NCBI GenBank assembly: GCA_014650475.1
Contig: BMVA01000008.1
Coordinates: 248,001-312,000, forward strand
Source: Streptomyces albogriseolus
Lineage (GTDB): Bacteria; Actinomycetota; Actinomycetes; Streptomycetales; Streptomycetaceae
DNA length: 64,000 bases
Direction of reading: 5' to 3'
Shown here: in pieces, positions 14,013 through 49,608 of the stretch
How positions within the stretch are numbered: position 1 is the stretch's first letter
Layout of the letters: the number at the start of each line of letters is the position of its first letter
Program-made: the position numbers and the translations under genes
Notes under the pieces: generated by a model
What the model saw: only the letters and a program-made list of their open reading frames with translations
What the model was told of the DNA's origin: nothing
Databases searched by the model: none

Positions 14013-14018
14013 TTTCTA
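14013..14018 (-). promoter_or_regulatory. -10 box of leaderless promoter
   Basis: TAGAAA on the minus strand with 7 nt to the ATG at 14005. No Shine-Dalgarno sequence lies between. Confidence 0.4.
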
Positions 14019-15487: not shown

Positions 15488-15596
15488 GTCCAGCCTTTCT
15501 GCTGCTTCTCTCCGGGTGCGTCCGACAGGACCGGTGCTCCTCCCGGGTACCCAGTCGGCGCAACGCTGCCCACATGGTCACCCGGTTGACCGAGAT

Positions 15597-15614
15597 GAGC
15601 GGTATGCACCGCTC
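15597..15614. promoter_or_regulatory. inverted repeat in the eutA-like/ehuB divergent region
   Basis: GAGCGGT-ATGC-ACCGCTC, a perfect 7-bp inverted repeat with a 4-nt spacer, 87 nt before ehuB. TTGACC at 15585-15590 on the plus strand adjoins it. Candidate operator for both divergent units. Confidence 0.4.
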
Positions 15615-15700
15615 GGCCTCCCGCCGCGGGATCGCGCCGTACGCGCACGGGGCCGAAACTGGCCGGAATAACTCGCATCCGTTCGGGTAGCCGCGCCGCC

Positions 15701-17313: not shown

Positions 17314-17960
17314 CGTGGGACTGGGGCGCGGTCGCCGACTTCATGCCGTACTTCTGGGACGGTCTGCTGGTCACCCTGCAGATCCTGGTGTTCGGCTCGC
17401 TGATCTCCTTCGCGCTGGGCCTGGTGTGGGCGCTGCTGATGCGGACGCCGACGCGCTGGGTGACCTGGCCGGTCGGCGCGGTCACGGAGTTCATCCGCAA
17501 CACCCCGCTGCTGGTGCAGCTGTTCTTCCTCTTCTACGTGCTGCCCGAGTGGGGGATCACCTTCTCGGCGCTGACCACCGGCGTCTTCGCCATCGGGCTG
17601 CACTACTCGACGTACACGATGCAGGTCTACCGCGCCGGTATCGAGGCCGTGCCGGTGGGCCAGTGGGAGGCGGCGACGGCGCTGAACCTGCCGCTGCGCC
17701 GGACGTGGACCGTGGTGATCCTGCCGCAGGCCGTGCGCCGGGTGGTGCCCGCGCTCGGCAACTACGTCATCTCGATGCTGAAGGACACCCCGCTGCTGAT
17801 GGCCATCACCGTGCTAGAGATGCTCGGCCAGGCACGGCTGTTCGCCCAGCAGAACTTCCAGTTCACCGAGCCCCTGACGGTGATCGGCGTGGCCTTCATC
17901 GTCATCTCCTACCTGGCCTCCCTTGCCCTGCGAGCCCTGGAGCGACGCCTTGTCCACTGA
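17310..17960 (+). CDS. ehuD: ABC transporter permease, EhuD-type
   Basis: 216 residues, second permease of the importer and a paralogue of the previous one. EAA loop GQWEAATALNLPLRRTWTVVILP (about 112-134). About five membrane segments. Starts with GTG in a 4-nt overlap with ehuC; its last codons overlap the TTG start of the ATPase gene. Confidence 0.8.
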   Translation: MTWDWGAVADFMPYFWDGLLVTLQILVFGSLISFALGLVWALLMRTPTRWVTWPVGAVTEFIRNTPLLVQLFFLFYVLPEWGITFSALTTGVFAIGLHYSTYTMQVYRAGIEAVPVGQWEAATALNLPLRRTWTVVILPQAVRRVVPALGNYVISMLKDTPLLMAITVLEMLGQARLFAQQNFQFTEPLTVIGVAFIVISYLASLALRALERRLVH

Positions 17961-18741
17961 CACCCACGCCCCGTTCGACGAGAAGCCCGAGACCCCGCGC
18001 GCAACCGGTGAGCTGATCCGGCTGGAGCGGGTCACCAAGCGGTTCGGGGACCACACGGTCCTGGACAACCTGGACTTCTCGGTCGACGCCGGCAAGCACG
18101 TGACGCTGATCGGCCCGTCCGGGTCCGGCAAGACCACGATCCTGCGGCTGCTGATGACCCTGCTGAAGCCCGACGAGGGCGTCATCACCGTCGACGGGCA
18201 GCGGCTGTTCCCGGCGCCGGAGAAGCAGGTCCGCGAGGTCCGCAAGAAGATCGGCATGGTCTTCCAGCAGTTCAACCTGTTCCCGAACATGACCGTGCTG
18301 CGGAACATCACCGAGGCCCCGGTCACCGTGCTCGGCATGTCCAAGGACGCGGCCGAGGAGCGGGCGCGGGAGCTGCTGGAGATGGTCGGGCTGACCGACC
18401 ACCTCGACAAGCACCCGGCCCAGCTCTCCGGCGGCCAGCAGCAGCGGGTGGCGATCGCCCGGGCGCTGGCGATGCGCCCGCAAGTGCTGCTGCTGGACGA
18501 GGTCACCTCGGCCCTGGACCCGGAGCTGGTGGCCGGTGTGCTGGACGTGCTGCGGGACATCGCCCGCTCCACGGACATCACGATGCTCTGCGTGACCCAC
18601 GAGATGAACTTCGCGCGGGACATCTCGGACCAGGTGCTGATGTTCGACTCGGGACGGGTCATCGAGGCGGGCTCGCCGGAGAAGATCTTCAACGAGCCGG
18701 AGCACGACCGGACGCGGGAATTCCTCAGCGCGGTCCTCTGA
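17950..18741 (+). CDS. ehuA: ABC transporter ATP-binding protein, EhuA-type
   Basis: 263 residues from TTG 17950 (GGAG 7 nt upstream), overlapping ehuD by 11 nt. Walker A GPSGSGKTT, Q-loop FQQFNLFP, signature LSGGQQQR, Walker B VLLLDEVTSALD, H-loop VTHEM: a complete, active ABC ATPase of the polar amino-acid uptake class. The rare TTG may keep its translation dependent on ehuD. Confidence 0.85.
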   Translation: MSTDTHAPFDEKPETPRATGELIRLERVTKRFGDHTVLDNLDFSVDAGKHVTLIGPSGSGKTTILRLLMTLLKPDEGVITVDGQRLFPAPEKQVREVRKKIGMVFQQFNLFPNMTVLRNITEAPVTVLGMSKDAAEERARELLEMVGLTDHLDKHPAQLSGGQQQRVAIARALAMRPQVLLLDEVTSALDPELVAGVLDVLRDIARSTDITMLCVTHEMNFARDISDQVLMFDSGRVIEAGSPEKIFNEPEHDRTREFLSAVL

Positions 18742-18790
18742 CCACGGAGCGCCCCCGGCGCATCACCCGAGGTCCCTGGCGTGGGTCGTT

Positions 18791-18810
18791 CCTCTGGCAT
18801 ATGCCAGAGG
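18791..18810. promoter_or_regulatory. 20-bp perfect palindrome before the IclR gene
   Basis: CCTCTGGCATATGCCAGAGG is a perfect palindrome 50 nt after ehuA and 127 nt before the IclR start. It may be the operator of the IclR-family protein. A small rho-independent hairpin ending the ehu operon is less likely, because the palindrome has no loop. Confidence 0.5.
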
Positions 18811-18936
18811 GTCGGCGCCGCAGTTCAGAGGGCCGCAATCTTGTCAACCCCCGCTTCCGCCAGGGCCTTTGACGGCTATCGTGGAGGGGATTCGCTGACC
18901 GGATTGCGGCCCTACGAGCGAGCGCAGGGGGAAACC

Positions 18937-19695
18937 GTGGCGCTGAGGCACGAGCCGACCGCGTCGTACCACTCGGTCCAGGACGCGCTGCGCGTCCTGG
19001 AGACGGTGGGGCGGCGCGGCACAGGAATCAACGAGACCGAACTGGCCCGCGAGACCGGCATCGCCACGGAGCGGCTGACCACCCTCCTGCGCATGCTGCG
19101 CCGCGAGGCCTACGTCGAGCAGATCACCGACGGCGCCTATGTCACCGGGGCGGCCTTCGCCCGGCTCGGCTCCGCCGACGGACACCGGCAGGCCCAGCGG
19201 GACACCCTCCAGCGCACCCTCGACCGGCTGCGCGACCGTGTGGGCGCCGCCGTCTACCTCAGCCGGTACGTCGACGGCGAGGTCCGGGTCACCCAGTACG
19301 CCGACTCCCCGGCCACCCCGAAGGTGAACGAGTGGGTGGACTTCCGCTACTCGGCGCACGCCACGGCGGTCGGCAAGAGCCTGCTCACCCAGCTGGACCA
19401 CGAGGGACGGCGCGACCACCTGGCCCGGCACCGCCCGGCCCGGCTCACCTCGCGCACCATCACCAGCGACCGCCTGCTGCTGTCGAAGCTCGCCGCGCAG
19501 CCGCCGACGGCGCCGGTTCTGGACCTCCAGGAGTACGCGGTCGGCACGGTCTGCGCGGCCGTCCCGCTCACCGCCGGGTCCACGGCCGGCTGCCTGGCGC
19601 TGTCCCTGCCGCTGGAGCACGCCCACCGGCTGCGCCGGGCCGCCGACACCCTCAACCGCAGCGCCGCCCCGATGCTGCTGTCGTTGGCGATCTGA
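18937..19695 (+). CDS. IclR-family transcriptional regulator
   Basis: 252 residues from GTG 18937, preceded by AGGGGG. N-terminal winged helix (about 8-70: ALRVLETVGRRGTGINETELARETGIATERLTTLLRML). Effector domain follows (about 85-250: EWVDFRYSAHATAVGKSLL, LQEYAVGTVCAAVPL). It lies directly downstream of ehuBCDA on the same strand with a palindrome between, so it is the likely local regulator of uptake. The ligand is unknown. Confidence 0.8.
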   Translation: MALRHEPTASYHSVQDALRVLETVGRRGTGINETELARETGIATERLTTLLRMLRREAYVEQITDGAYVTGAAFARLGSADGHRQAQRDTLQRTLDRLRDRVGAAVYLSRYVDGEVRVTQYADSPATPKVNEWVDFRYSAHATAVGKSLLTQLDHEGRRDHLARHRPARLTSRTITSDRLLLSKLAAQPPTAPVLDLQEYAVGTVCAAVPLTAGSTAGCLALSLPLEHAHRLRRAADTLNRSAAPMLLSLAI

Positions 19696-19736
19696 GCCCG
19701 CCACGGGAGTGGTCGGGAGCACCCCCGCGGACCAGG

Positions 19737-19742
19737 TATGAT
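19737..19742 (+). promoter_or_regulatory. -10 box of tRNA-Lys copy 2
   Basis: TATGAT, 41 nt before the mature 5' end of the tRNA, a good match to the major sigma factor consensus. Confidence 0.55.
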
Positions 19743-19783
19743 TTTTCCCGTCGCCGACCGCGGAAGCGGACGGCGGGAGTCAT

Positions 19784-19857
19784 GCGCCGCTAGCTCAGTT
19801 GGTTAGAGCAGCTGACTCTTAATCAGCGGGTCCGGGGTTCGAGTCCCTGGCGGCGCA
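19784..19857 (+). tRNA. tRNA-Lys (anticodon CUU), copy 2
   Basis: 74 nt, identical to the copies at 13348 and 23444, anticodon loop CTCTTAA. It has its own promoter and terminator, so it is transcribed alone. Confidence 0.95.
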
Positions 19858-19862
19858 CCGAG

Positions 19863-19892
19863 AAGGGCCTCTCGTGGGAGCGAGAGGCCCTT
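19863..19892 (+). terminator. terminator of tRNA-Lys copy 2
   Basis: AAGGGCCTCTCG (19863-19874) pairs with CGAGAGGCCCTT (19881-19892), 12 bp with a 6-nt loop, followed by TTGA. Confidence 0.8.
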
Positions 19893-19937
19893 TGACGTGC
19901 CCGGATCCTTATCTCGGGCCGTGGGGCCCGGACCGGT

Positions 19938-20543
19938 CTAGAAGGTCACGTCCGAGCAGGCGTAGAACGCGTTGCCCGTGTCATGGACCGTCCACACCGC
20001 GAGGATCACGTGGTGGCCGCTGAGCCCGGTGGGCAGCCGGCCGCTGTGCGACAGGGTCTGCGGCGGACGCTGACCGTTGTAGGGGACGGTCAGGAACGGC
20101 GTGAGGTTGAGGTCGGACCGGGACAGGTTGTGGTTCTGGTTCCAGCCCGGCTTGGTGACGTAGTACTTGAAGTCGGTGGTGGCGTGCATCGCCGTGAACT
20201 GCCACCGGAAGGTGTACTCCTGGCCGCCGGTCACCCGGGTGGTGGGCCAGGCGCCGCCCGACGGGGTGCGCGGGGCGTCGAGGGGGGCGAAGGACGCGTT
20301 GCCGGCCGAACAGAGCTTGCCGTCGGCGGGGCCGCCCGCCGGGAAGCCCTTCGGGCCCTCGACGCTCTGCGGCTCCCACTGGATGGCGCCGCAGTTGGAG
20401 ACCCCGCCGTTCTGGCAGAGCTTCTGCCTGCTGACCGGCAGGTCGGTGTAGCCGTGGCCGCTGGCGCCGCCGGAGGAGAGCATGAGCGCTCCGGTCGTGG
20501 CCAGTCCCACCGCGGCCGCGTACAGCTTGGTCCGTTTACGCAT
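19938..20543 (-). CDS. AA10 lytic polysaccharide monooxygenase (chitin-binding protein, LpmP-like)
   Basis: 201 residues. AGGAG precedes ATG 20543. Signal peptide 1-29 (RKRTKLY ... GGASG), cleaved so that His30 becomes the N-terminal copper ligand (HGYTDLPVSR). Second histidine-brace residue His120 (FTAMHATTDF). Axial aromatic in the C-terminal NAFYACSDVTF. The protein is only the catalytic domain, secreted, and cleaves chitin or cellulose oxidatively with copper. It sits close to cslA-glxA. The S. coelicolor protein at this place has, as far as I recall, been named LpmP and linked to glucan deposition at hyphal tips. DasR-type sites upstream predict control by N-acetylglucosamine. Confidence 0.85.
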   Translation of the reverse strand: MRKRTKLYAAAVGLATTGALMLSSGGASGHGYTDLPVSRQKLCQNGGVSNCGAIQWEPQSVEGPKGFPAGGPADGKLCSAGNASFAPLDAPRTPSGGAWPTTRVTGGQEYTFRWQFTAMHATTDFKYYVTKPGWNQNHNLSRSDLNLTPFLTVPYNGQRPPQTLSHSGRLPTGLSGHHVILAVWTVHDTGNAFYACSDVTF

Positions 20544-20583
20544 ACTGCCGCTCCTGGAGTGTGGGGGAGTTGTCAGGGGTGCA

Positions 20584-20634
20584 GGTCTAGACCAAGTCTC
20601 AGCGTAAGGACGCCAGTTGGGCATGTCCAGACCA
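20584..20634. promoter_or_regulatory. DasR-responsive elements before the LPMO gene
   Basis: GGTCTAGACC, a perfect 10-bp palindrome at 20584-20593 (flanked as AGGTCTAGACCA), is the core of the DasR dre site. A second copy, TGTCCAGACCA, is at 20624-20634, in the direct-repeat arrangement known from Streptomyces chitinase promoters. Confidence 0.7.
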
Positions 20635-20695
20635 ATCGCAGGGCTTTTGTTTCCCCTTCTGTCTCCCGGTGCTTCCCCACCGCCTCGGGCGCCGT

Positions 20696-21841
20696 TCAGG
20701 ACCGGGTCTCGCCCCGGCCCGCGCAGAACGCCACCGTCAGGTCCTTCACCAGCACCTGGCGCTCGTAGTCGTCCAGGTCCACCAGACCGCGCATGGTCAG
20801 CCGGGCCACGGTGTCCTCCACCGAGTCCACGACGGAGCCGATCACACCGGCCCGGTGCCGGGCGTCCAGCGCCGCGATCCGGCGCCGGTGCATCGCGGCG
20901 GCCACCTCCGGCGCGTACTCCACCCGCAGCGGCCGTACCGCGCACACCTCCACCCCCACAGGACCGGCGTCCGCCGCCACCAGCCGGGTCAGCGCGTCCT
21001 GCGTCGCCTGCACCGCGCCCCGCCCGGCGCCCGGCGCGGCCACCGGCACCCGCAGCAGCGCCGCCTCCACGCACGCCCGCAGATACCCCTCGTGGTCCTC
21101 GACGCCCAGCGTCGCCCGCGCCGTGTCCCGCACCCGCCACACCACCAGCACCGCCACCCGCAGCGCGACCCCGCCCCGGTCGGCGGCCGGCAGCGGCTCA
21201 CCGCGCCAGTGCCGCAGCCGCACGTCGACCCGGCGGCGCAGCAACAACGGGTTCACCCACAGCAGTCCGGTGCCCCGCACGGTCCCCCGGTAGCGGCCGA
21301 ACAGCTCCAGCACCCAGGCCCGCCCGGTCCGCCCGCGGGCCAGACCGCCGAAGCCGAACAGCCCGAGCGCCCCGGCCCCGGCGAACGCCGCCCACTGCGC
21401 GGGCCCGGGACCGCCGGTCCCGGCGGACAGGCCGGGCGCCTCCGCCGCGAGCGGCGGCAGCACCCCCGCCCACCACGCGGTGACCGCGCAGCCCGCCGCG
21501 CCGCACATCCCCGCGAGCACCCCGGCGATCCCCGGCAGCACCCGCGCGCGCCGCTCCACGATCTCCGGGTCGACGCCGGGCGCGGACGCCCGGGCCCGTA
21601 CGCCGATGTCCCGCGTGTCCCGGTCCTCCTTGTCGGGCGCGGGACGGTGGGCGACGACCGCGGGCCGCAGCTTCACCTCCGCGGGAGGCGCCGCGGGTTC
21701 CTCGCGGAACAGCAGGTGGACGGGGATCTCGGTGGTGGACTCGGTGTGGATCAGCCGGGCCGGGCGGGCGGCCGCGACGCCGCCGTCGGGTCCCTCGGAC
21801 TCGGGGACGTGCTCGGGGATGTGGGATGTCGTGGTGGTCAT
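20696..21841 (-). CDS. SPFH/band-7 domain membrane protein
   Basis: 381 residues from ATG 21841 (GGAGG upstream). The N-terminal 95 residues are polar. Two hydrophobic segments (about 100-125 and 145-165) are followed by an SPFH domain (about 175-360: FGRYRGTVRGTGLLWVNPLLLRRRVDVRLR, VEVCAVRPLRVEYAPEVAAAMHRRR). It ends with a helical tail (YERQVLVKDLTVAF). SPFH proteins form membrane rings that organise lipid domains. The partner is unknown. It lies between the LPMO and the NlpC/P60-like gene in the same orientation, so a role in envelope organisation is plausible. Confidence 0.75.
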   Translation of the reverse strand: MTTTTSHIPEHVPESEGPDGGVAAARPARLIHTESTTEIPVHLLFREEPAAPPAEVKLRPAVVAHRPAPDKEDRDTRDIGVRARASAPGVDPEIVERRARVLPGIAGVLAGMCGAAGCAVTAWWAGVLPPLAAEAPGLSAGTGGPGPAQWAAFAGAGALGLFGFGGLARGRTGRAWVLELFGRYRGTVRGTGLLWVNPLLLRRRVDVRLRHWRGEPLPAADRGGVALRVAVLVVWRVRDTARATLGVEDHEGYLRACVEAALLRVPVAAPGAGRGAVQATQDALTRLVAADAGPVGVEVCAVRPLRVEYAPEVAAAMHRRRIAALDARHRAGVIGSVVDSVEDTVARLTMRGLVDLDDYERQVLVKDLTVAFCAGRGETRS

Positions 21842-21938
21842 GCGTGCCTCCAGCCTCCGCGCCAGATGCGTCACAACGGGGAACAGCGAGAACAGCGAGA
21901 TACCCGGGCGGGGGCGGACGCCCGGCGCCCCGGTCGGG

Positions 21939-23246
21939 TCAGGAGAAGAGCCGCCGCCAGGTCTCCGGGCCCGGGACGCCGTCCGCCGCCCTGCCGCTCC
22001 GGCCCTGCGCCCGCTGGAAGTCGGCCGCGTCGCGGCGGTCCTCCTCGCCCCGGCGCGGGCCGGGCCCCTGGGTGCGGTGCCGGCCGAACCCCGTCGCCGC
22101 CGGCTGCCGGCCCAGCCGGGTGACGTGCTCGTTCTCCGTCCCCGGGCGGAACCGCGCCCGGCCCGGAGAGCCCGGCGCCCCGTGTGACGCGGGCGCGGCG
22201 AGAAGGCCCGCCGGAGCAGAAGCGGAACCTCCGTTTGAGACATCCGGGGCCCCGCCGGACCGGCCGGTCCGGGGACCGGGAGCGCCGTCCACGGCGACGC
22301 CCCGCCGCGCCGGCGCCCCGCCGGCCGCTCCCTCCCCGGCGTCCGTTCCGCGCGGACCGCCCGGCACGGCGGGCGCCGGCTCCCCGCCGCCCGGCCCGGC
22401 GGCGTCCGCGCCCTCGGCGACAGGTGGGGAATCCGCCACCGGCTCGGCCGGAAGCGCGGGCCGGGCGGCCGCGACGGCCTCCGGACCGGCTCCCGCGGCC
22501 CCGTCGGTCACGCCCTTGTAGCGGTACGGCACATAGCTCGCCGAGTTGTTCCAGTAGGCGTACGGAGTGGTCATCTTGCGGGTGTGCGGCGGGGTCTGCT
22601 CGTAGGCGACGTACTGGGTGCGGGCGGAGTTCGCCCATCCGCCGAAAATGACGACGTGCGAACCGTTGTACGGGTCGGACGCATTGTGGAACAGGAGGAT
22701 GTCACCCGGCTGGAGTTCCGCCTTGGTGATTTTGTCGGCGTATTGCGCGAGGCTGCCCGTCCATTCGTTGCCGGGCAGTTTCCAGGCCATCGACACATAG
22801 CCCGAGCAGTCCTGCCGGTATCCGTCGGACCAGTAGGAGGACACGTTGTAGGGGACCTTCTGGCTGACCCAGAAGGCGGCCCGCTCGACGATGTCCGTCC
22901 GGCTGATCGCGGGGATCGTCCCCGGGGCGCCGGGCGGCAGCGCGGGACCCGTGCGCCCGTCGGAGCCGAACAGCGGACCCGGCGCGCCCTGCCCGCCGCC
23001 GCTCCCCTGATCTGCGGGAACGCCCTGGCCCGTGGAGACCCGGGCGTCCTGGGCGGCGACCGCGGGGACCGGGTGGGCGCCGAGCGCGGCGGACGTGACC
23101 GCGGCCACCACCAGGGCGGCGCGGTGCGCCGGGGAGCGCCGCGGCCGCCCCGCGCGGGGAAGCGGCCGCTCCCGATGTTCACCCGCACAGCCGGGGCACA
23201 CGCGGTCTCCGGCCGGACCGAATTCCTGGCACACCGGAGACCCCAT
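21939..23246 (-). CDS. secreted NlpC/P60-like amidase with peptidoglycan-binding C-terminus
   Basis: 435 residues from ATG 23246 (AGGGGAA upstream). Two parts precede the enzyme: a Cys motif (VCPGCAGEH, residues about 17-25) and a hydrophobic export segment (AALVVAAVTSAALGA, about 44-58). The catalytic domain spans about 115-245 with Cys in QDCSGYVSMAW and His in GSHVVIFGGW. A disordered Pro/Ala/Gly-rich linker of about 140 residues comes next. The C-terminus DFQRAQGRSGRAADGVPGPETWRRLF is one peptidoglycan-binding repeat. Likely a cell-wall peptidase or amidase. The CxxC motif ahead of the export segment is unusual. Confidence 0.75.
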   Translation of the reverse strand: MGSPVCQEFGPAGDRVCPGCAGEHRERPLPRAGRPRRSPAHRAALVVAAVTSAALGAHPVPAVAAQDARVSTGQGVPADQGSGGGQGAPGPLFGSDGRTGPALPPGAPGTIPAISRTDIVERAAFWVSQKVPYNVSSYWSDGYRQDCSGYVSMAWKLPGNEWTGSLAQYADKITKAELQPGDILLFHNASDPYNGSHVVIFGGWANSARTQYVAYEQTPPHTRKMTTPYAYWNNSASYVPYRYKGVTDGAAGAGPEAVAAARPALPAEPVADSPPVAEGADAAGPGGGEPAPAVPGGPRGTDAGEGAAGGAPARRGVAVDGAPGPRTGRSGGAPDVSNGGSASAPAGLLAAPASHGAPGSPGRARFRPGTENEHVTRLGRQPAATGFGRHRTQGPGPRRGEEDRRDAADFQRAQGRSGRAADGVPGPETWRRLFS

Positions 23247-23423
23247 GCGATTCCCCTCACATTCCCGGAACGTTTCTCCGCCTCTGCGCACGAGCGTCAG
23301 TGTCGCAACGGTCCTCCGGGCGCGCACTTTGACGGTCCGAATGATGTAAAGCACCCCTCCCCCGGACGCCCCCGGGTGGCGGACGCCGGACCGGGGCGGT
23401 CACGAGCACCCTCCGCGGTCCTG

Positions 23424-23429
23424 TAGAGT
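23424..23429 (+). promoter_or_regulatory. -10 box of tRNA-Lys copy 3
   Basis: TAGAGT, 14 nt before the mature 5' end of the tRNA. Confidence 0.5.
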
Positions 23430-23443
23430 TCTGCCGTCAGCAG

Positions 23444-23517
23444 GCGCCGCTAGCTCAGTTGGTTAGAGCAGCTGACTCTTAATCAGCGGGTCCGGGGTTC
23501 GAGTCCCTGGCGGCGCA
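23444..23517 (+). tRNA. tRNA-Lys (anticodon CUU), copy 3
   Basis: 74 nt, identical in sequence to the copies at 13348 and 19784. It has its own -10 box and terminator. Confidence 0.95.
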
Positions 23518-23523
23518 CCGACA

Positions 23524-40237: not shown

Positions 40238-40308
40238 GACCGGGACGAGCCGGCCGTGGACCGGCCCCGGAGGGCCTTCAGGCCCTCACTTCTGTCACCT
40301 GCCGGCAG

Positions 40309-40314
40309 TACGGT
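40309..40314 (+). promoter_or_regulatory. -10 box of leaderless SEC-C gene
   Basis: TACGGT with 7 nt to the ATG at 40322 and no Shine-Dalgarno sequence. Confidence 0.55.
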
Positions 40315-40321
40315 GTCCCCC

Positions 40322-41332
40322 ATGCGCCCCGACACGCCTGCCGAAAACGTCGACCACATCAACGAGGCCGCCCGTCTGGAGCGGACCGCCGACCGCTACC
40401 CCGAGGACGCCGAGGCCCTGCTGCTGCGGGCCGCCGCGCACCGGGAGCTGGCCGGCGACCGCCCGGCCGCGACGGCGCTCTACGACCGCCTGCTGACCTC
40501 GGGCGCGGACCTGGACAACCCGCACCTGGTCCGCGCCCTGAAGGCCTCCAACCTGTGGGAGTACGGCCACGAGGCGGAGGCCCGCGCGATCATCGCCGGC
40601 ATCCGCACGGCGTCCCCGCGCGACCCCGCCGCCTGGGTGATCGTCGCGGAGGCACTGGAGGCGCACGACGAACTGGAGCAGGCGCACGAGACGTTCACCG
40701 CGGCGGTGCGTCTGCTGCTGTCCGGCGTGAGCGAGCCGCCGCGCGCCACGCATCCGCTGCTCCTCGGCCGCCACCGGGTGCGCAGGATGCTGGGCGCGGC
40801 GCACGACGAGTGGGACGCGCTCGCCGACTCCGTGCACACGCACATCATCGGCCTGGACGAGCTGCACGACCCCAAGCGCGTGTGGTCGCTGGGCTCGGAG
40901 AACCCGGAGGAGCTGGAGGCGGAGATCCTGCGGCTGCGCGCCGAGCTGGGCGCGTACCGGGAGGCGCTGTCCCGCCCGTTCCCGGTGGCGGTGCTGCACT
41001 GGCCGGCCGGCGAACTGGCGGAGCTGACGGAGGCGTACCCGGACCTCGCGGAGGAGTACCCGTCCTACGAGGCGCACCTGGGGACGATAGAGGCGGCCCT
41101 GCGCGAACTGGCCGCCTCCGGCACGCCGAACCTGGGCATCGTGCGGGGCACGGTCCCGTCGTACGAGGCGTTCGCCGCGTCGGAGTCGGCGTCCCCGTCC
41201 GACGCCTCGCTTCTCCCCCAGTACGCGACGACGCTCGCGGCGCGGGGGCGTGCGGTGGCGTGGCCGCCGGAGCGGTCGGAGGCGTGCTGGTGCGGGTCGG
41301 GGCGGGCGTACGGGGAGTGCCACGGGGCGTAG
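40322..41332 (+). CDS. TPR-like protein with C-terminal SEC-C zinc motif
   Basis: 336 residues. N-terminal helical repeats (about 10-135; ERTADRYPEDAEALLLRAAAHRELAGDRPAATALYDRLL is a TPR-like pair). A middle region of mixed structure follows. The last 12 residues CWCGSGRAYGECHG form a complete SEC-C metal-binding motif (CxC...CH) as at the end of SecA. SEC-C is a zinc-binding protein-contact module. The partner is unknown. Leaderless start at ATG 40322. Confidence 0.8.
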   Translation: MRPDTPAENVDHINEAARLERTADRYPEDAEALLLRAAAHRELAGDRPAATALYDRLLTSGADLDNPHLVRALKASNLWEYGHEAEARAIIAGIRTASPRDPAAWVIVAEALEAHDELEQAHETFTAAVRLLLSGVSEPPRATHPLLLGRHRVRRMLGAAHDEWDALADSVHTHIIGLDELHDPKRVWSLGSENPEELEAEILRLRAELGAYREALSRPFPVAVLHWPAGELAELTEAYPDLAEEYPSYEAHLGTIEAALRELAASGTPNLGIVRGTVPSYEAFAASESASPSDASLLPQYATTLAARGRAVAWPPERSEACWCGSGRAYGECHGA

Positions 41333-41463: not shown

Positions 41464-42397
<934 letters not shown>

Positions 42398-42599
42398 CCG
42401 GCGTCATTCCGTCGCCGCGCCGGGCAGCCACACGGGCGGGCGGCTTCCCGCCGTGCCGACGTGTGCGGGCTGTGGCGACCCGGCCGCACTGATCTCATTC
42501 CATCTGCCGCGACGAGGGCGAGCGTCCACCGCCGGGCGGAGATCGGCCTCTGTCGGAGGTTGCAGCGGGCTCGTCGGGAGCGGGTGAACCCCGGGTGGT
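42398..42599. other. gene-poor stretch at the edge of the accessory segment
   Basis: 202 nt where no reading frame shows coding character or family similarity. It lies between the hydrolase promoter and the DUF1801 remnant and may hold the left boundary of the accessory segment. Confidence 0.3.
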
Positions 42600-42781
42600 G
42601 GAGCGGTGCCTCTTCTGCCGTGACGCCGCCCCGCTCGTACGCAGGCATCCCGTGGGCCAGGACTTCCGTACGCCCCTTGACCTCGGCCCGGCACAGCTCA
42701 CGCAGGGGCCGTCAGGACGGCCTTGCAGCAGTCGGGGACCTCAGTGAGGTAGCTGTCGACGTCGGTTGTGCTGATTTGCAC
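42600..42781 (-). pseudogene. frameshifted and truncated DUF1801-family remnant
   Basis: From GTG 42781 the frame gives TTDVDSYLTEVPDCCKAVLTA and then hits TGA. Dropping one base near 42708 restores LRELCRAEVKGRTEVLAHGM and PAYERGGVTAE, the N-terminal half of DUF1801/YdhG-type proteins. The remainder of the domain is missing. The gene therefore has one frameshift and a 3' truncation. Confidence 0.55.
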
Positions 42782-42831
42782 CACGGGGAGCTTGTGCCGA
42801 GCCGGGGGCGCTGTCCCTTCTTAGGTGTGAG

Positions 42832-43818
42832 CTACCGAGCTTGCCTGCCCTGCCTCTCCCAGTACTCGCGGTGATAGCGGAGGTAGGCGGGGTGCACGTA
42901 GTGCCCTTCTCGCACCCTGAGCTGCGGCAGCAGACTGACTCCCAACAAGGGCGCTCGCGGGATCAGATTGCGGTCGTCGTCCAGAGTGACGGCCCCCATG
43001 TCGAGTCGCACATGGCAGTTGGGGCACAGGCAGATGATGTTGGGCTCAACGTCTGGCCCGTCGTGCGGCTTCCCCAAGGGGCGTATGTGCGCTCCTTCGC
43101 AGTAGGGCCTACCGTCGGGCCCCAACAAGCGGAGACCGCACAACTGACACTCTCCGTCATACAGCTGCTTGATCCGTTGCGCGGCAGCCGTATCGCGGAT
43201 CAGTCGACGTACCCGCACGCTGCGCGCACGGGGGAACTTCTCCTCGTACTGTGGCTCGTCGCCTAGTTCCTCCAGCACGTCCATCACATGCCGCTCGAGC
43301 TTCGTCTGCACTTGGTCCTGATCCGGAAGGCGCCGCAGGTCGAATTGGCAGATGCGGACGGGCGACCCATCCGGAGCCGGGTACTTGGAGATCGCGGTGC
43401 GCACGTCCGTAATCTCGTAGAGGCCGTCGTAGCGGTAGGAGTCAGACGGGGAGTAGCGGCGGTCGCCTTCGTAGCCCCGGATCACTCGGACGGGATAGCC
43501 CCGCTCGAAGCTGAGACGCAACGCAGCGTTGTCCGTGTAGGACCAGGACTGACTGCGCAGCAGCCGGCCGCTTGGATCCTTTTCCTTCCCCGGCGATGCT
43601 CCGGTGTACTGGATGCGGTCCCACTCGTCTTCGTCGTCCACGTAGCCGCCGTTCAGGACGATCGCATCGCTGACCTTGCTGCCGTCCTGGTCTAGCAGCC
43701 AGGAGATGCCGCGCTGATTCGTCTGGTGCAGCCGAGCCTCCTGTACGTCCTTCCGCCGATGGAACACCGTGCCCACGGGCACGCCCTCGATGTGTCCGAT
43801 GACGCGTTCGATAGTCAT
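42832..43818 (-). CDS. SRA(YDG)-HNH modified-DNA-dependent endonuclease (type IV restriction)
   Basis: 328 residues. The N-terminal half (about 1-165) is an SRA/YDG domain that flips and reads modified cytosine: SDAIVLNGGYVDDEDEWDRIQYTG, then GRLLRSQSW, NAALRLSFERGYPVRVIRG. The C-terminal half is an HNH nuclease with zinc cysteines C224, C227, C265, C268 and catalytic residues H244 (EGAHIRPLG), N260 (PNIICLC) and H269. Same architecture as Streptomyces type IV enzymes such as the ScoMcrA group, but no separate sulfur-binding domain is seen. Predicted to cut DNA carrying 5-methyl- or modified cytosine. Divergent from the PLD/helicase gene, 162 nt apart. Codon use is less GC-biased than in neighbouring core genes. 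Confidence 0.85.
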   Translation of the reverse strand: MTIERVIGHIEGVPVGTVFHRRKDVQEARLHQTNQRGISWLLDQDGSKVSDAIVLNGGYVDDEDEWDRIQYTGASPGKEKDPSGRLLRSQSWSYTDNAALRLSFERGYPVRVIRGYEGDRRYSPSDSYRYDGLYEITDVRTAISKYPAPDGSPVRICQFDLRRLPDQDQVQTKLERHVMDVLEELGDEPQYEEKFPRARSVRVRRLIRDTAAAQRIKQLYDGECQLCGLRLLGPDGRPYCEGAHIRPLGKPHDGPDVEPNIICLCPNCHVRLDMGAVTLDDDRNLIPRAPLLGVSLLPQLRVREGHYVHPAYLRYHREYWERQGRQAR

Positions 43819-43920
43819 CCACCCATGCTGGAACGCGAGTGATCACTTATGTCGAACTCTCGGTCGACGACGTCAAGTTGAGATCACTCAGCGCATCATC
43901 TCGGCCATCACCGCCTCCGG

Positions 43921-43943
43921 TTGTCAGAGCCCTCTGTTACACA
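43921..43943 (+). promoter_or_regulatory. possible damage-type promoter before the PLD/helicase gene
   Basis: TTGTCAGAG (43921-43929), 8 nt, TACACA (43938-43943). It resembles the element at 4208 (TTGTCAGTG-N8-CAGACT) with one base different in the -35 part and a weaker -10 box. AGTGATCACT (43838-43847) and GAGATCACTC (43880-43889), nearer the SRA-HNH gene, share GATCACT and may be operators. Confidence 0.4.
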
Positions 43944-43980
43944 TAGGCCCAGCTATTCGGCCGTGATCAAAGGAGCGTGC

Positions 43981-46900
43981 GTGTCTGAGCTGGAGGATCT
44001 GTCCCACCCCGCCGCAGGCCTCTACGAGCAACTGATCACGCTCCGTTTTGAGCAGCAGCTGCACGAGCTGTCCCAGCTTGGCTGGTATCCGCTACGGGAA
44101 GACGTGGGCGCCGAGTCGGTGCCGCACGTACTGGCTCGGCACGTCGCACGCACTGTGCACCGTGTCCTGCTGAACCTTCCCGCGGAGGAGCGGGTGCACG
44201 CTGCCAACCACATCTTGGAGTCCGTCAGCACGGTTAAGGGTGCCCAGGAGTGGGTCGATCTCATCGCTGACGGCCCTCAGCAACTGCTAGCGATCACACG
44301 CCAAGAGGCTCCCGGGGTGTTCGCCGTTCGCCCGGGCATTCCGCTCTCCGATGCAGCGCTGCTCACCAATGCTCCTGAAGACCCAAGCCTCGGCTTTGAA
44401 CTGCGCGCTGAGCTTGCCACGGCGGATCGCGTCGACCTGCTCTGCGCTTTCGTGAAATGGCATGGGCTTCGCGTCATCGAGCGGTCGCTACAGGCCGCCG
44501 CTGAGCGAGGTGTACCCATCCGTGTCCTCACCACGACGTACATCGGCGCCACAGAACGGCGAGCGTTGGACCGACTGGTTCGAGACTTCCAAGCTGAGGT
44601 GAAGGTCAACTACGAGACACGCTCAACGCGCCTGCACGCCAAAGCATGGCTCTTCCATCGAGGCAGTGGCTACGACACCGCGTACGTCGGCAGTTCGAAC
44701 CTCTCCAAGGCCGCCCTGCTCGACGGCTTGGAGTGGAACGTGCGCTTGTCCTCCGTGGCCACTCCCGAGGTGATAAGGAAGTTCGAAGCGACCTTCGAGT
44801 CGTACTGGAACGACCCCTCATTCGAGACCTACGACCCTGACGCCGACGGCTCCCGTCTCAGTGACGCACTCGCTGTGGCTGGCGGTGCGCCGGCGACAGG
44901 GAAGGCCATCACGCTAGCCGGCCTCAAAGTACGGCCGTATCCCTATCAGCGGGACATGCTGGAACGCCTCAATGTGGAGCGAGAGGTCCACCACGTTCAC
45001 CGGAACCTCTTGGTCGCCGCGACGGGCACCGGCAAGACCGTCATGGCTGCGTTGGACTACAAGCAACTCCGGCAGAAGCATGGACGCGAACTGCGTCTCC
45101 TCTTCGTGGCGCATCGTAAGGAAATCTTGCAGCAGTCTCTCCGGACCTATCAGGAGACCCTACTGCACGCAGATTTCGGGGAATTGCTCTACAGCGGCGA
45201 GATCCCGGAACGCTGGACGCACGTCTTTGCGAGCGTCCAGTCGCTCAATCCCCTGACTCTGGATCGCCTCGACCCGACCCATTTCGATGTCATCGTGATC
45301 GATGAGTTTCACCATGGAACCTCTCCGACCTATCGGAAGATCATCGATCACTTCAAACCGATGGAGCTGTTGGGCCTCACTGCCACGCCGGAGCGCATGG
45401 ATGGGACAAGCGTCCAAGACGAATTCTTTGAAGGGCGTATCGCCGCAGAAATGCGCCTCTGGGAAGCTCTCGACAACAAGCTTCTGAGCCCCTTCCACTA
45501 CTTCGGCATCAGCGACACCACCGATCTCAGCTCGGTCGAGTGGAGGCGCGGATCGTACGACGTGAGCTCTCTCAGCAACGTCCTCACGGGCAACAAGACG
45601 CGCGCCGCCCTCGTCGTGAAGGCAGTCGAAGAGAAGGTCGCTGACCCGAGCCGCATGCGCGCCTTGGGGTTCTGCGTCTCTGTGGCCCATGCCCACTTCA
45701 TGGCCGATTCCTTCCGCTCCGCCGGCCTCCAGGCCGTCGCGGTGTCCAGAGAGACCCGGCCCGAGCAGCGACGGCAAGCACTGGCCGAGCTGAGGTCCGG
45801 TGCGCTGCAAGTAATCTTCTCCGTCGATTTGTTCAACGAGGGTGTCGACATCCCAGACGTCGACACGCTATTGCTTCTCCGCCCCACGTCAAGCTCGACC
45901 GTCTTCCTGCAACAGCTGGGCCGGGGGTTGCGCCGATCCGACAGCAAGGCCGTGCTTACGGTCCTGGACTTCATCGGTCAGCACCGCAGGGAGTTCCGCT
46001 TCGAGAACCAGTTCCGCGCCCTGACCAACTTCACGCGGAAGCGACTACTGCACCACATCGAGCATGACTTCCCGAAGCTGCCCTCCGGCTGCGAAATCAT
46101 GCTTGAGGAGAAGGCGAAGCGCACGATCATCGCCAACATCAAGGAGCAACTCAACGTCAACGTGAAAACGCTGGCACGCGAAGTGGCGGATTATCGTGAG
46201 CCGCTTCTCGGTCGGTACCTGGAGGAGAGCGGCCGGGACATCAAGGAGGTGTACCGAGGGACGGGGAACTCCTGGACCGGGCTCCTTCGCCGGTCGGGCT
46301 TGCTGGACGAGGGAGCACCCGAGGGGGAGGCTGCACTGCTCAGGCGGGTCCCTGCCTTCCTCCACGTCGACGATCCTCTCCGCGTCCAGGCGTACACGCG
46401 CCTCCTAGGAGACGATGCTCCCGCTTACAGCCACCTCGATGAGCAGACCCAGGCTTACGCCCGCATGCTCTTCTTCCAGCTCTGGCCGCTAGGCGGGGTG
46501 ACCCGGAAGGGGTTTGCGAGCTACGACGCCGGCTTCGCGGTCCTCCGTAAGCAGCGAGCGTTCCGCAGCGAGTTGCGCCAGGTGTTGGCTCACAATCTCG
46601 CCCATACCGAGCACATCCCCATCCCGCTGCTTGGGGTGGCTCGCGACCGCCCCATCCCGCTGACCGTGCACGCCTCCTACAGCCGCGAAGAGATCCTTCC
46701 CGCTCTTGGCCAAGCCGATATTGGAGGTCAGATGCCTGGGGACTTCCGGGAAGGGGTGCTGTGGTGTGAGTCCATCGCAACGGATGCACTGTTCGTCACG
46801 CTAGAGAAGGACGAGAAGGACTTCTCTCCTCAGACCCGCTACCGCGACTTCGCGTTGAGCGACACGCGTTTCCACTGGGAGTCCCAGAACAGGACCTCGG

Positions 46901-47136
46901 AGTCATCCCCGACCGGCTTGAGGTATCAGCGCCACGCCAGCCAGGGCAGTCAGGTGCTGCTCTTCGTCCGCCGTTACAAGAGCACCGACATAGGGGGTCC
47001 ACAGCCGTGGATGCTGTTGGGCCGCGCCGAGTACGAGCGACACGAGGGCAGCAGGCCCATGGCCATCACCTGGAAGCTGGAGCACGCTCTCCCGGCGGAC
47101 GTACTGTCGTACGCCCAGGCCGTCGCGGCGGGCTGA
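43981..47136 (+). CDS. PLD nuclease - SF2 helicase - DUF3427 protein
   Basis: 1051 residues from GTG 43981 (AAAGGAG 5 nt upstream). Three parts. About 130-270: phospholipase-D-type nuclease, one HxK set (H219, K221 in RLHAKAWLFH; SSN 238-240; Glu251). About 310-700: DEAD/DEAH SF2 helicase with Walker A ATGTGKT (347-353), DEFHH (441-445), TATP (467-470) and arginine-finger motif QQLGRGLRRSD. About 760-1040: DUF3427. The N-terminal 120 residues are helical. The order PLD-helicase-DUF3427 is known from bacterial accessory regions and is suspected to act on foreign DNA. With the divergent SRA-HNH gene it forms a probable defence unit. Codon use is less GC-biased than in the core genes. Confidence 0.8.
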   Translation: MSELEDLSHPAAGLYEQLITLRFEQQLHELSQLGWYPLREDVGAESVPHVLARHVARTVHRVLLNLPAEERVHAANHILESVSTVKGAQEWVDLIADGPQQLLAITRQEAPGVFAVRPGIPLSDAALLTNAPEDPSLGFELRAELATADRVDLLCAFVKWHGLRVIERSLQAAAERGVPIRVLTTTYIGATERRALDRLVRDFQAEVKVNYETRSTRLHAKAWLFHRGSGYDTAYVGSSNLSKAALLDGLEWNVRLSSVATPEVIRKFEATFESYWNDPSFETYDPDADGSRLSDALAVAGGAPATGKAITLAGLKVRPYPYQRDMLERLNVEREVHHVHRNLLVAATGTGKTVMAALDYKQLRQKHGRELRLLFVAHRKEILQQSLRTYQETLLHADFGELLYSGEIPERWTHVFASVQSLNPLTLDRLDPTHFDVIVIDEFHHGTSPTYRKIIDHFKPMELLGLTATPERMDGTSVQDEFFEGRIAAEMRLWEALDNKLLSPFHYFGISDTTDLSSVEWRRGSYDVSSLSNVLTGNKTRAALVVKAVEEKVADPSRMRALGFCVSVAHAHFMADSFRSAGLQAVAVSRETRPEQRRQALAELRSGALQVIFSVDLFNEGVDIPDVDTLLLLRPTSSSTVFLQQLGRGLRRSDSKAVLTVLDFIGQHRREFRFENQFRALTNFTRKRLLHHIEHDFPKLPSGCEIMLEEKAKRTIIANIKEQLNVNVKTLAREVADYREPLLGRYLEESGRDIKEVYRGTGNSWTGLLRRSGLLDEGAPEGEAALLRRVPAFLHVDDPLRVQAYTRLLGDDAPAYSHLDEQTQAYARMLFFQLWPLGGVTRKGFASYDAGFAVLRKQRAFRSELRQVLAHNLAHTEHIPIPLLGVARDRPIPLTVHASYSREEILPALGQADIGGQMPGDFREGVLWCESIATDALFVTLEKDEKDFSPQTRYRDFALSDTRFHWESQNRTSESSPTGLRYQRHASQGSQVLLFVRRYKSTDIGGPQPWMLLGRAEYERHEGSRPMAITWKLEHALPADVLSYAQAVAAG

Positions 47137-47139
47137 ACT

Positions 47140-47799
47140 TCAGCTAGGGCCAGGGGCTGCGCCCAGTTCGGCTTCGAAGTGCGTCTGGGCGCGGTCCAAG
47201 ATGTCGTCGGCGTCATGGCCGTGCGCCCTCAGCCAGTGCAAGAGGTCGGAGATGAGGTCGATGGCTGCCGCCTCCGTCGCCAGGGCGCCGATCCGGCTGT
47301 GACGCGGCCCGGTGGACAGCCGCCCATCGCTGTAGGAGCTGAGCATCTTCTCCGCTCGCGCCACACGCGTGCTTCCCACGCCGCCGCCCTGCGGGGTTAC
47401 CGGCGCGGCGACGATCTCGCACCACGTGACCTTTCCGTCCCGATGCAGGTCGACGCCCCAGCGATCCGACAAGGCGTCGATCAAGGTCATGCCTCGCCCG
47501 TTCTCGGCGTCCTCGGTCGCCTCCATGAGCGTGGGAAGCACGCGTGTATCCGGGTCCCGCACCTCAAGGCGCAGGCGGGCATCTCCCAGAGAGAGGGTGA
47601 GGCTGGCGGGGGTCCCACGACCCACGTGAGTGATCACGTTGGACACGAGTTCACTGACACAGAGCTGAGCCGCGTCGATGACCTCCCGAACACCCCAGTC
47701 ACGGAGTCGCACTCGTACGTCTGCTCGCAGCGCCGAGACCTCTTCGGGCTCGGCGAGGAATTGAACCCGCCAGAGGGGGATGTGAGCCGCTTCGTCCAC
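47140..47799 (-). CDS. RsbW-like ATP-binding (HATPase_c) regulator with C-terminal extension
   Basis: 219 residues, GTG 47799 with GGAGG upstream. The N-terminal 130 residues are a serine-kinase-type ATP-binding domain (N-box VSELVSNVITHVG, D-x-D region VRDPD, G-box ENGRGMTLIDALSDRWG). The C-terminal 70 residues are a helical extension unlike the bare RsbW fold (LISDLLHWLRAHGHDADDILDRAQTHFEAEL). In Streptomyces such proteins stand beside a DUF5753/Scr1 XRE protein and DUF397 (abaA-type cluster). Here it is convergent with the helicase gene and divergent from the XRE gene. Confidence 0.75.
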   Translation of the reverse strand: MDEAAHIPLWRVQFLAEPEEVSALRADVRVRLRDWGVREVIDAAQLCVSELVSNVITHVGRGTPASLTLSLGDARLRLEVRDPDTRVLPTLMEATEDAENGRGMTLIDALSDRWGVDLHRDGKVTWCEIVAAPVTPQGGGVGSTRVARAEKMLSSYSDGRLSTGPRHSRIGALATEAAAIDLISDLLHWLRAHGHDADDILDRAQTHFEAELGAAPGPS

Positions 47800-47852
47800 G
47801 CTTCTCCTCCTAAGTAGGCCACGCTGGTGACGCCTTGCATGTGGTCACATAC

Positions 47853-47889
47853 TGAGAGTTGCACTGAAACTCTCAAAATGAAACTCTCA
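47853..47889. promoter_or_regulatory. XRE/ATPase divergent operator
   Basis: TGAGAGTT-N7-AACTCTCA (47853-47875) is a perfect 8-bp inverted repeat. A third AACTCTCA half-site follows at 47882-47889. It lies between the ATPase and XRE genes and is a likely XRE binding site. Confidence 0.6.
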
Positions 47890-48000
47890 CAAGGTGTCTG
47901 GTGGAGTGCGAGGAGTCGTACGCGCCCCCGGCGCACACCGCCTTGCCGTGACGAACGCGGGGAGGCAACTATCGATCGACTCGCACGAAGGGCTCATGCC

Positions 48001-48846
48001 ATGCCAGTTGGACCCACCACCCGACGGCGTCAGTTGGGCGCCGACCTCCGCCGACTCCGCGAACTGGCGGGCTTAACGCTGGAGGAAGCGGGAGCACGCG
48101 TGGGCATCTCGAAGGCGACTCTGAGCCGCTACGAGACCAAGGAAGGCGTGGTCAAGTGGCCGGCCGTGGACGCACTGTGCCGGGAGTACGGAGCGACGGA
48201 TGAAGAGCGCTTCGCCCTGGTCGAGCTGGCCAAGGGCGCACGGATTCAGGGGTGGTGGCGCTCTCTCGCCGACCCGATCCCCGAGTCCATGAACCTCATG
48301 CTCACCCTTGAGGACGAGGTGGTGCGCGAGGACCACTACGCCTGCATGTACGTTCCAGGGCTGCTCCAGACCCGCGCGTATGCCGAAGCCGTGCATCGGG
48401 CTTCGGAGGTGCAGTGCGAGGAACGCGAAGTCCAGCACATGGTCGACATCCGCATGAAGCGCCAGGAGCTTCTGGAACGCCAAGACCCACCGCACCTCTG
48501 GGCGGTGATCGATGAGGCCGCGCTACGGCGACGGGTGGGCGGCCGTGATGTGATGCGGGAGCAGCTGAAGCACCTGCTGACGATGGCTGAGCGTTCGCGC
48601 GTCACCGTGCAGGTCTTGCCGTTCGACCGAGGCGCGCACGCTGCGGCGGTCGGAAGCTTCGCGGTGCTGCGCGGCCAGGCTCCCGAACTCGACGTGGTGT
48701 ACGTGGATCTCCTCGGCGGTGGGCTGTTTATGGAGAAGCCAGAGGAACTCGAGCGTTATAAGTTGGCGTTCGAGTACCTCAGCGCCCAGGCACTCGACTT
48801 CGAGTCCTCCACCGATCTCATCGACCGGATCAGCAAGGAGACCTGA
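48001..48846 (+). CDS. XRE-family regulator with DUF5753 (Scr1-type)
   Basis: 281 residues from ATG 48001 (GAAGGG upstream). HTH about 10-62 (LGADLRRLRELAGLTLEEAGARVGISKATLSRYE). DUF5753 region follows (about 105-275: YACMYVPGLLQTRAYAEAVHRA, PHLWAVIDEAALRRRVGG, VTVQVLPFDRGAHAAAVGSFAVLRGQ). In Streptomyces these proteins work with DUF397 partners and have been compared to toxin-antitoxin pairs. Its stop overlaps the DUF397 start. Confidence 0.85.
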   Translation: MPVGPTTRRRQLGADLRRLRELAGLTLEEAGARVGISKATLSRYETKEGVVKWPAVDALCREYGATDEERFALVELAKGARIQGWWRSLADPIPESMNLMLTLEDEVVREDHYACMYVPGLLQTRAYAEAVHRASEVQCEEREVQHMVDIRMKRQELLERQDPPHLWAVIDEAALRRRVGGRDVMREQLKHLLTMAERSRVTVQVLPFDRGAHAAAVGSFAVLRGQAPELDVVYVDLLGGGLFMEKPEELERYKLAFEYLSAQALDFESSTDLIDRISKET

Positions 48847-49046
48847 TGACGGCCCTGTCCCAGCTCACCTGGATCACATCGTCCTACAGCGGCGGCAGTG
48901 GCACCGAGTGCGTCGAATGCGCCCGCATCCCAGCGGGCGCGCTGATACGCGACTCAAAGTGGGCTGACGGACCGATAGTTCGCGTGGGCGCCGAGCCCTG
49001 GAAGGCGTTCGTACGCTCCTTGTGGCCAGGCACCCCGAGCGCGTAG
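48846..49046 (+). CDS. DUF397 small protein
   Basis: 66 residues, ATG in TGATG overlap with the XRE gene. TWITSSYSGGSGTECVECARIPAGALIRDSKWADGPIVRVG is the complete DUF397 domain with its Cys pair. Partner of the XRE protein; in related loci (abaA-type) it influences development or antibiotic production. Function here not known. Confidence 0.85.
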   Translation: MTALSQLTWITSSYSGGSGTECVECARIPAGALIRDSKWADGPIVRVGAEPWKAFVRSLWPGTPSA

Positions 49047-49071
49047 GGGGCAGTGCGGGCTAGGCGCCCGA

Positions 49072-49608
49072 CTAAGCCGCCCCACTCCCCTCCCACTCCC
49101 CCGCCAACAACCCCAGCACCACCTCATCCATGAACTCCCCCAACACCCACGCCGACTTGCGCAGCACCCCCTCCCGCACGAACCCGTTGCGTTCCGCCGC
49201 GCGGATCATGCCCTCGTTGTCCGCGAGGGTCTCGATCTGGAGGCGTTGCAGGCCGCGTACGGCGAAGCCGTAGTAGCAGAGGGCCGCGACGACGTCCGTG
49301 CCGTAGCCCTTGCCGCGGGCGGCGGGGAGCAGGCCGACGCCGATGTGGGCGTTGCGGTTGTGGGTGTCGATGCCCCACAGGTTCGCCGTGCCGATGAGGG
49401 TGTCGCCCTCGAGCTCCACCACGGAGAAGGACGCCAGGTTCTCCGGTGGGTTGTCGAAGGCGAGTTGCGGGTCGTTCGCCGTGACCGGCCGCCAGGGACG
49501 GCCCTCGGCGCGCGCGGCGTTGACCACGTCGTTGTAGAGCTCGGCCCGCAGGACCGGTATGTCGTCCTCGCGGCGGTCCCGGAGGCCGACCCTCGTTCCC
49601 TTCAGCAT
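49072..49608 (-). CDS. GNAT-family N-acetyltransferase
   Basis: 178 residues from ATG 49608 (GGAAGGG upstream). RimJ/RimL-type GNAT: GTRVGLRDRREDDIPVLRAELYND at the N-terminus, acetyl-CoA loop VGLLPAARGKGYGTDVVAALCYYGF, then LETLADNEGMIRAAERNGFVREGVLRKSAW. Substrate may be a ribosomal protein N-terminus or a small amine. Its coding region ends near the start of the accessory segment. GC content is back to the core level. Confidence 0.85.
   Translation of the reverse strand: MLKGTRVGLRDRREDDIPVLRAELYNDVVNAARAEGRPWRPVTANDPQLAFDNPPENLASFSVVELEGDTLIGTANLWGIDTHNRNAHIGVGLLPAARGKGYGTDVVAALCYYGFAVRGLQRLQIETLADNEGMIRAAERNGFVREGVLRKSAWVLGEFMDEVVLGLLAGEWEGSGAA

Follow-up and report, generated by a model that had tools for sequence, protein, structure and literature searches.

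What does it mean that two genes for predicted methylation-dependent nucleases stand back to back at a place in the Streptomyces chromosome where related genomes often carry a cytosine methyltransferase? The genes lie in a 64,000-nucleotide stretch of Streptomyces albogriseolus (assembly GCA_014650475.1, contig BMVA01000008.1, positions 248,001 to 312,000 of the forward strand; the whole stretch is referred to as the window), and we call them P1, encoding an SRA-HNH endonuclease, and P2, encoding a phospholipase D (PLD) nuclease-superfamily 2 (SF2) helicase-DUF3427 enzyme. An initial annotation had proposed that they act as one two-nuclease defence unit. Our analysis leads to a different reading, to which we give a probability of roughly 70%: P1 and P2 are predicted 5-methylcytosine (m5C)-dependent nucleases in a C5-methyltransferase slot, and represent the 'breaker' form of a locus at which m5C writing and m5C destruction alternate.

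42832..43818, minus strand: P1, TagI/ScoA3IV-family SRA-HNH endonuclease, 328 residues (Pfam, TagI 6ghs match, active-site residues)
43819..43980, no strand: intergenic region between the divergent start codons, 162 nt
43981..47136, plus strand: P2, SauUSI-type PLD nuclease-SF2 helicase-DUF3427 enzyme, 1051 residues (Pfam, PADLOC, SauUSI 7clg)

Two predicted m5C-dependent nucleases

The P1 open reading frame (ORF) is uninterrupted and encodes, in a single chain, an N-terminal SRA domain (SAD_SRA, PF02182, residues 7-167, 113.7 bits) followed by a C-terminal HNH_2 domain (residues 224-279). TagI (PDB 6ghs) aligns with residues 2-318 (E = 1.5e-58), a full-length match in which H244, N260, H269 and D273 of P1 are equivalent to His229, Asn245, His254 and Asp258 of TagI, that is, the HNH triad and the metal-binding Asp. 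These residues and the zinc ligands C224/C227/C265/C268 are invariant in 18 aligned sequences, so the annotation of an SRA-HNH protein with all catalytic residues is borne out. Judged by this homology, P1 is a new member of the known type IV family TagI/ScoA3IV (Sco5333). Its zinc site is of the CxxC/CxxC form reported for ScoA3IV, whereas TagI has CxxD at one place (PMC6212794). P1 differs from the described members in that Asn259 of TagI, a dimer-interface residue required for full TagI activity (PMC6212794), is not kept (M274 in P1), and in that it adjoins a SauUSI-type gene, a neighbourhood which the available part of PMC6212794 does not mention for the family. We also considered whether mobile elements carry P1 and dropped the idea, as a search with P1 gave only two weak partial phage records, and of 48 plasmid records just one covered ≥80% of the query, at 36% identity.

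The P2 reading frame is open from 43921. We set the start 20 codons later, at the GTG at 43981, because many relatives have the resulting 1051 residues and AAGGAG lies 5 nt before this GTG, and from there both the annotated length of the protein and its distance of 162 nt from P1 hold. Pfam matches, all above cut-offs, are to PLDc_2, ResIII, Helicase_C and DUF3427, giving the order PLD nuclease, SF2 helicase, DUF3427, and the PADLOC mREase_IV profile PDLC03659 scores 1475 bits over the profile. H219, K221 and N240 (HKD-type, numbered from GTG 43981), the Walker A motif and the DEFH motif are invariant in 33 aligned sequences. Among solved structures SauUSI (7clg, 258 bits) matches best by sequence, aligned chiefly over residues 164-740 with a weak C-terminus; SauUSI is also the first Foldseek match of the P2 model (E = 5e-32, 952 columns), though the model is of low confidence (mean pLDDT, the predicted local distance difference test, 64), and we therefore make no claim on the fold beyond this match and rejected a reliable DUF3427 fold.

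With the same three domains in the same order, and with SauUSI as its closest solved relative by sequence and fold, P2 is by these comparisons a new member of the known SauUSI-type type IV family, from which it departs in being ~100 residues longer, in its diverged (weakly matching) DUF3427 region and in being sometimes paired with an SRA-HNH enzyme. A review lists SauUSI and the S. coelicolor enzyme ScoA3I (SCO2863) with m5C restriction (PMC3874153), and the S. coelicolor enzymes named elsewhere comprise ScoA3I ('unverified, SauUSI-like'), the SRA-HNH enzyme ScoA3IV and ScoMcrA (PMC6212794); P2 is likened to ScoA3I by published description only. The initial annotation knew of no characterised system with this architecture, which remains true of the pair, as PADLOC gives single-gene type IV labels only, but not of its parts, each of which belongs to a known type IV family. 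Given these single-gene labels, we dropped the idea of a characterised or new named two-gene system.

By analogy with these relatives, we infer that both proteins would cleave m5C-containing DNA and may cooperate in doing so. Working as SauUSI does, P2 would use its C-terminal region to bind m5C, move along the DNA with ATP, and cleave through the PLD domain once two sites come together. P1, in the manner of TagI, would take a flipped m5C into its SRA pocket and then nick or cut at a nearby position, needing no nucleoside triphosphate.

A slot shared with C5-methyltransferases

40256..41332, plus strand: left anchor, SEC-C motif core gene beside the variable slot (Pfam SEC-C; in 157 of 199 genomes)
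42393..49076, no strand: allelic block, with both flanks 93-95% identical to genome G132, which has a NaeI/C5-methyltransferase block instead
42580..42820, minus strand: DUF1801 gene remnant, with an open aligned counterpart in G132

The genome closest to that of the window among those sampled, G132, carries between the same flanks a NaeI-type restriction-modification (RM) system with a predicted C5-methyltransferase, and inside the allelic block only the DUF1801 stretch (79%) and a stretch containing an XRE regulator (69%) still align. The NaeI-type system occupies the same slot as P1 and P2 and differs from them in being predicted to write m5C, not to attack it. Genome G027 likewise has a C5-methyltransferase at the corresponding place. 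P1 and P2 have a lower GC content at third codon positions (0.81 and 0.79) than the two genes to their left (0.95 and 0.94), in line with the less GC-biased codon use first noticed. The broken DUF1801 gene described on one side of the pair was also confirmed: its two pieces in the window gave no match in Pfam, while the aligned G132 gene (L325:15393-15764) is open and matches DUF1801 at 6e-15. The same stretch occurs in relatives with the methyltransferase allele, so the gene was present independently of P1 and P2, and we rejected the idea that insertion of the pair left this remnant as a scar.

We surveyed 199 Streptomyces genomes. The SEC-C anchor was found in 157, near-full-length P2 in 58 (among 63 genomes at E ≤ 1e-60) and P1 in 20 (82 genomes match at E ≤ 0.001, and the count was set at E ≤ 4e-40; it omits the degraded copy in G169 and a 34/47% match in two parts in G106, and includes a copy with an internal stop in G159). 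With 150 of the 157 anchors placed and 150 methyltransferase matches listed, counts for the slot are lower bounds. In all 50 genomes where both were placed on one contig, P2 is found on the downstream side of the SEC-C gene (the anchor is on another contig in two of the other eight P2 genomes, and has no listed place in six). P1 occupies the slot in at least 13 genomes, nine with P2 directly beside it and four alone, and the same slot holds a C5-cytosine methyltransferase in at least 59 other genomes. Variable restriction genes thus lie between fixed core genes, as in a locus of the immigration-control type. The enterobacterial immigration control region, with hsd, mcrBC and mrr between conserved anchors, also has variable, modification-dependent restriction genes in the available part of its description (PMC12707154), but the Streptomyces slot holds different genes and alternates mutually exclusive m5C writers and breakers.

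The two kinds of gene seldom occur in one genome. A C5-methyltransferase is present in 9 of 58 P2 genomes versus 114 of 141 others (p = 4e-18), or in 13 of 63 if five partial P2 genomes are added; for P1 the figure is 1 of 20, and 0 of 7 for genomes with P1 but without P2. Twenty genomes have neither P1, P2 nor a C5-methyltransferase (one of them, G015, was among 12 genomes of the survey whose slots were read). On an rpoB tree of 139 of the 199 genomes, 52 of them with P2, a Pagel fit strongly preferred the dependent model (likelihood ratio 74.5, 4 degrees of freedom), some of its rates lying at the set bounds, so that the rates themselves are not meaningful. We also compared path-disjoint pairs on this tree, chosen greedily by closeness and differing in the gene tested: in 39 P2-discordant pairs the methyltransferase was found solely in the P2-less member 29 times and solely in the P2 member never, with 10 ties, and 13 P1-discordant pairs gave eight solely in the P1-less member, none in reverse and five ties. 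The control, N6-methyltransferases (PF02384), showed no exclusion (52 of 58 P2 genomes versus 114 of 141 others; 3 versus 3 in 39 pairs). Exclusion concerns C5- and not N6-methyltransferases, and nothing points to Dam-type N6-methyladenine as a target, which the initial annotation had considered alongside m5C.

It is therefore likely that this slot determines which lineages write methylated DNA and which destroy it. Writer and breaker kinds would take each other's place as alleles, probably through recombination between the common flanks, since a cell's own C5-methyltransferase would presumably expose the chromosome to cutting. A comparable conflict is reported for McrBC, a methyl-specific nuclease that blocks establishment of a methylation gene, the PvuII methyltransferase (PMC2614495); McrBC is however often linked with a methyltransferase homologue (PMC2614495), whereas in the Streptomyces slot the two replace each other.

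Several observations weigh against this reading, among them the poor structure model of P2 and the bounded rates of the Pagel fit. Nine P2 genomes do carry a C5-methyltransferase, and in one locus (L036) the slot contains an NB-ARC/TPR protein with no evident role in methylation. In the slot, P1 and P2 occur together only moderately more often than chance would give (both in 9 genomes, P1 only in 4, P2 only in 41, neither in 103; Fisher p = 0.0045, which ignores phylogeny). Outside the slot exclusion of C5-methyltransferases is weaker, with 6 of 58 P2 genomes versus 60 of 141 others among the matches listed (p = 5e-6), 4 of 52 versus 33 of 98 where the anchor was placed (p = 3e-4; 5 of 53 versus 39 of 104 for all genomes with an anchor), and no significant difference in genomes of ≤10 contigs (4 of 23 versus 21 of 59, p = 0.18). 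Much of the exclusion could simply reflect rivalry of two gene sets for a single slot, and at the extreme it would be a mere by-product of allelic replacement, P2 targeting some other feature of DNA and the two systems simply being unable to share a place. The nine exceptional genomes and the non-significant result in near-complete genomes speak for this; against it are the lack of N6-methyltransferase exclusion (these genes being counted wherever they lie in a genome), the rarity of C5-methyltransferases outside the slot in P2 genomes when all genomes are taken, and the SauUSI-type nature of P2, given that the SauUSI-like ScoA3I (SCO2863) is listed with in vivo m5C restriction (PMC3874153, PMC6212794). 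We consider such a by-product unlikely.

Pairing of P1 and P2 across genomes

Relatives of P1 were collected in a scan of one genome per species, from which the best 80 of 127 loci were used. At ≥55% identity to P1 there are 26 loci, 22 of them with P2 head-to-head, and in 20 of these 22 the nominal gap between start codons is 119-162 bp (the exceptions are L031, with a broken P2, and L033, with a wider gap); the remaining four are L036, L039, L040 and L044, the last of which starts at a contig edge. Nine further loci have an SRA-HNH gene tail-to-tail with P2 (71-72% identical), five of them with a 4-nt overlap of stop codons, and their SRA-HNH proteins, which form two other lineages, are 34-44% identical to P1. 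In 49 of the 80 loci the available flank holds no P2, including all those of named non-Streptomyces genera and many of Streptomyces. Trees of the two proteins disagree: L038 joins P1 of one clade with P2 of another, L033 does the reverse, and P2 of L095 groups with P2 of L048/L049 with its P1 in a distant clade, which indicates that partners have been exchanged. Three SRA-HNH lineages are therefore joined to P2, in two geometries and with swapped partners, and the outcome that the initial annotation named as refuting its proposal, that the genes never occur together elsewhere, did not arise. The three paired clades also include ten loci with P1 only (L036, L039, L040, L044, L047, L077, L081, L087, L097 and L099), and in eight of them (all but L081 and L087) the SEC-C gene lies no more than 8 kb away in the available stretch.

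Is the pair, then, a single machine, in which P1 would recognise and nick m5C sites and P2 translocate and complete the cut, both expressed from a divergent promoter region? Conserved head-to-head spacing and the joining of several SRA-HNH lineages to P2 would fit such a design; against it, the two genes do not occur together in nearly all carriers (P2 lacks P1 in 45 of 58 genomes and P1 lacks P2 in 7 of 20), tail-to-tail pairs have no common promoter region, and a degraded P1 stands beside an open P2 in G169 (L159, C34), which suggests that P2 can persist after loss of P1. As tested members of each family also act alone, and P1 is by itself in 4 of its 13 slots, an obligate machine is unlikely. 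What stands of the proposed two-nuclease unit is its predicted role in restricting modified DNA, to which the families and the exclusion of C5-methyltransferases point. The opposite explanation, that P1 and P2 are independent type IV enzymes whose meeting reflects only a general defence hotspot in the slot downstream of SEC-C, and whose adjacency means nothing for function, is a serious contender, though we would put it at somewhat less than even odds. Each gene is found without the other in the slot, which also hosts RM systems and the NB-ARC/TPR protein of L036, proteins of either family that have been tested work singly (PMC3874153, PMC6212794), and part of the association may come from location, both genes being in one locus. 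Chance meeting explains less readily why the two are directly adjacent in all nine genomes that have both in the slot, with tight spacing or a 4-nt stop overlap, in two geometries and with exchanged partners, and why co-occurrence is enriched. In our preferred reading of a locus alternating between m5C writers and breakers, the breaker version would have P2 as its core, with P1 as a second cutter that may or may not be present.

Regulatory sequences, neighbouring genes and implications

43921..43943, plus strand: conserved promoter-like element TTGTCAGAG-N8-TACACA before P2, found by alignment, resembling RecA-NDp without the last T
47140..47799, minus strand: HATPase_c_2 protein (Pfam), 3 nt past the P2 stop and part of the exchanged block
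48001..48846, plus strand: XRE-DUF5753 regulator (Pfam), of a lineage that goes with the P2 type of locus

In 22 aligned head-to-head regions (that of the window and those of 21 loci, with L033 omitted as too long) P2 is preceded by a common block, TTGTCAG.G-N8-TACACA/TACAAC, which is degenerate in L031 and, to a slight degree, in L027; the block also stands before P2 in tail-to-tail and solo loci. The pattern TTGTCRGTG with N8 spacing, which we take to be the letters of the RecA-NDp consensus, is matched at ≥8 of 9 positions, with TA at N8, by 29 of 55 distinct P2 upstream regions (8 of 9 in the window; simulated mean 0.01), these regions being related and so not a sample of independent sites. 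The -10 hexamer does not agree with TAnnnT, reading TACACA in the window and ending in T in none of 40 tallied cases, and for this reason we rejected a canonical RecA-NDp promoter and call the element RecA-NDp-like only. With TAnnnT the pattern has 22 matches in the window genome (L131-L152; control 0), several of these canonical sites preceding genes read as recA, uvrA, uvrB and dinG, and others (L149, for example) preceding genes not identifiable from their first residues. RecA-NDp (PafBC-type) is a promoter of the damage response (PMC5087735, PMC6789036), and P2 may be induced by DNA damage, a weaker suggestion drawn from promoter likeness. A spacer motif, TGTCRG-N5-CYTGNTANNA, was rejected as a genome-wide operator, having a single match in its own genome, which is not at P2.

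The HATPase family is present at 15 of 32 pair loci (counted by an ORF method). An XRE protein ≥70% identical to that of the window occurs at 25 of 37 P2 loci versus 0 of 8 methyltransferase loci (duplicates L170 and L180 excluded; 25 of 33 without the weak or partial P2 loci L154, L158, L165 and L168). The XRE lineage tends to follow the P2 or methyltransferase type of locus, and the HATPase-XRE pair (47140-48846) may regulate it. In G132 XRE is followed by a DUF397 gene; in the window no open ORF for such a gene was seen on the right of XRE. In L036, a locus without P2, the NB-ARC/TPR gene (L036:5261-7483) is a STAND-type candidate defence gene lying between HATPase and P1. Three tRNA-Lys(CTT) and one tRNA-Ala(CGC) are predicted by ARAGORN in a part of the window spanning ~10 kb (13347-23519); these four predictions, all at 13-24 kb, are far from P1 and P2.

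Alternation of m5C writers and breakers at one locus, and the recurrent association of two predicted m5C cutters that differ in mechanism, appear to be new; a search of the open-licence literature found no paper on the pair or the alternating locus, a weak negative as most subscription journals were outside its scope. A bolder and rather doubtful extension would make the locus downstream of the SEC-C gene an epigenetic-identity switch of Streptomyces, in which recombination in the flanks would swap m5C writers and destroyers together with an allele-specific regulator pair, SRA-HNH partners would be recruited repeatedly and exchanged, the breaker would be raised by DNA damage, and lineages would divide into m5C-plus and m5C-minus groups, each rejecting the DNA of the other.

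If the alternation of writers and breakers is true, it would explain why some Streptomyces restrict m5C-containing DNA and others carry m5C methylation, and would allow strains that need unmethylated DNA for transformation to be predicted from their genomes. It would also provide a natural case of conflicting epigenetic systems competing as alleles of one locus, and it opens to direct experiment, in a genus amenable to genetics, an old question: are modification-dependent nucleases there chiefly to exclude methyltransferases?
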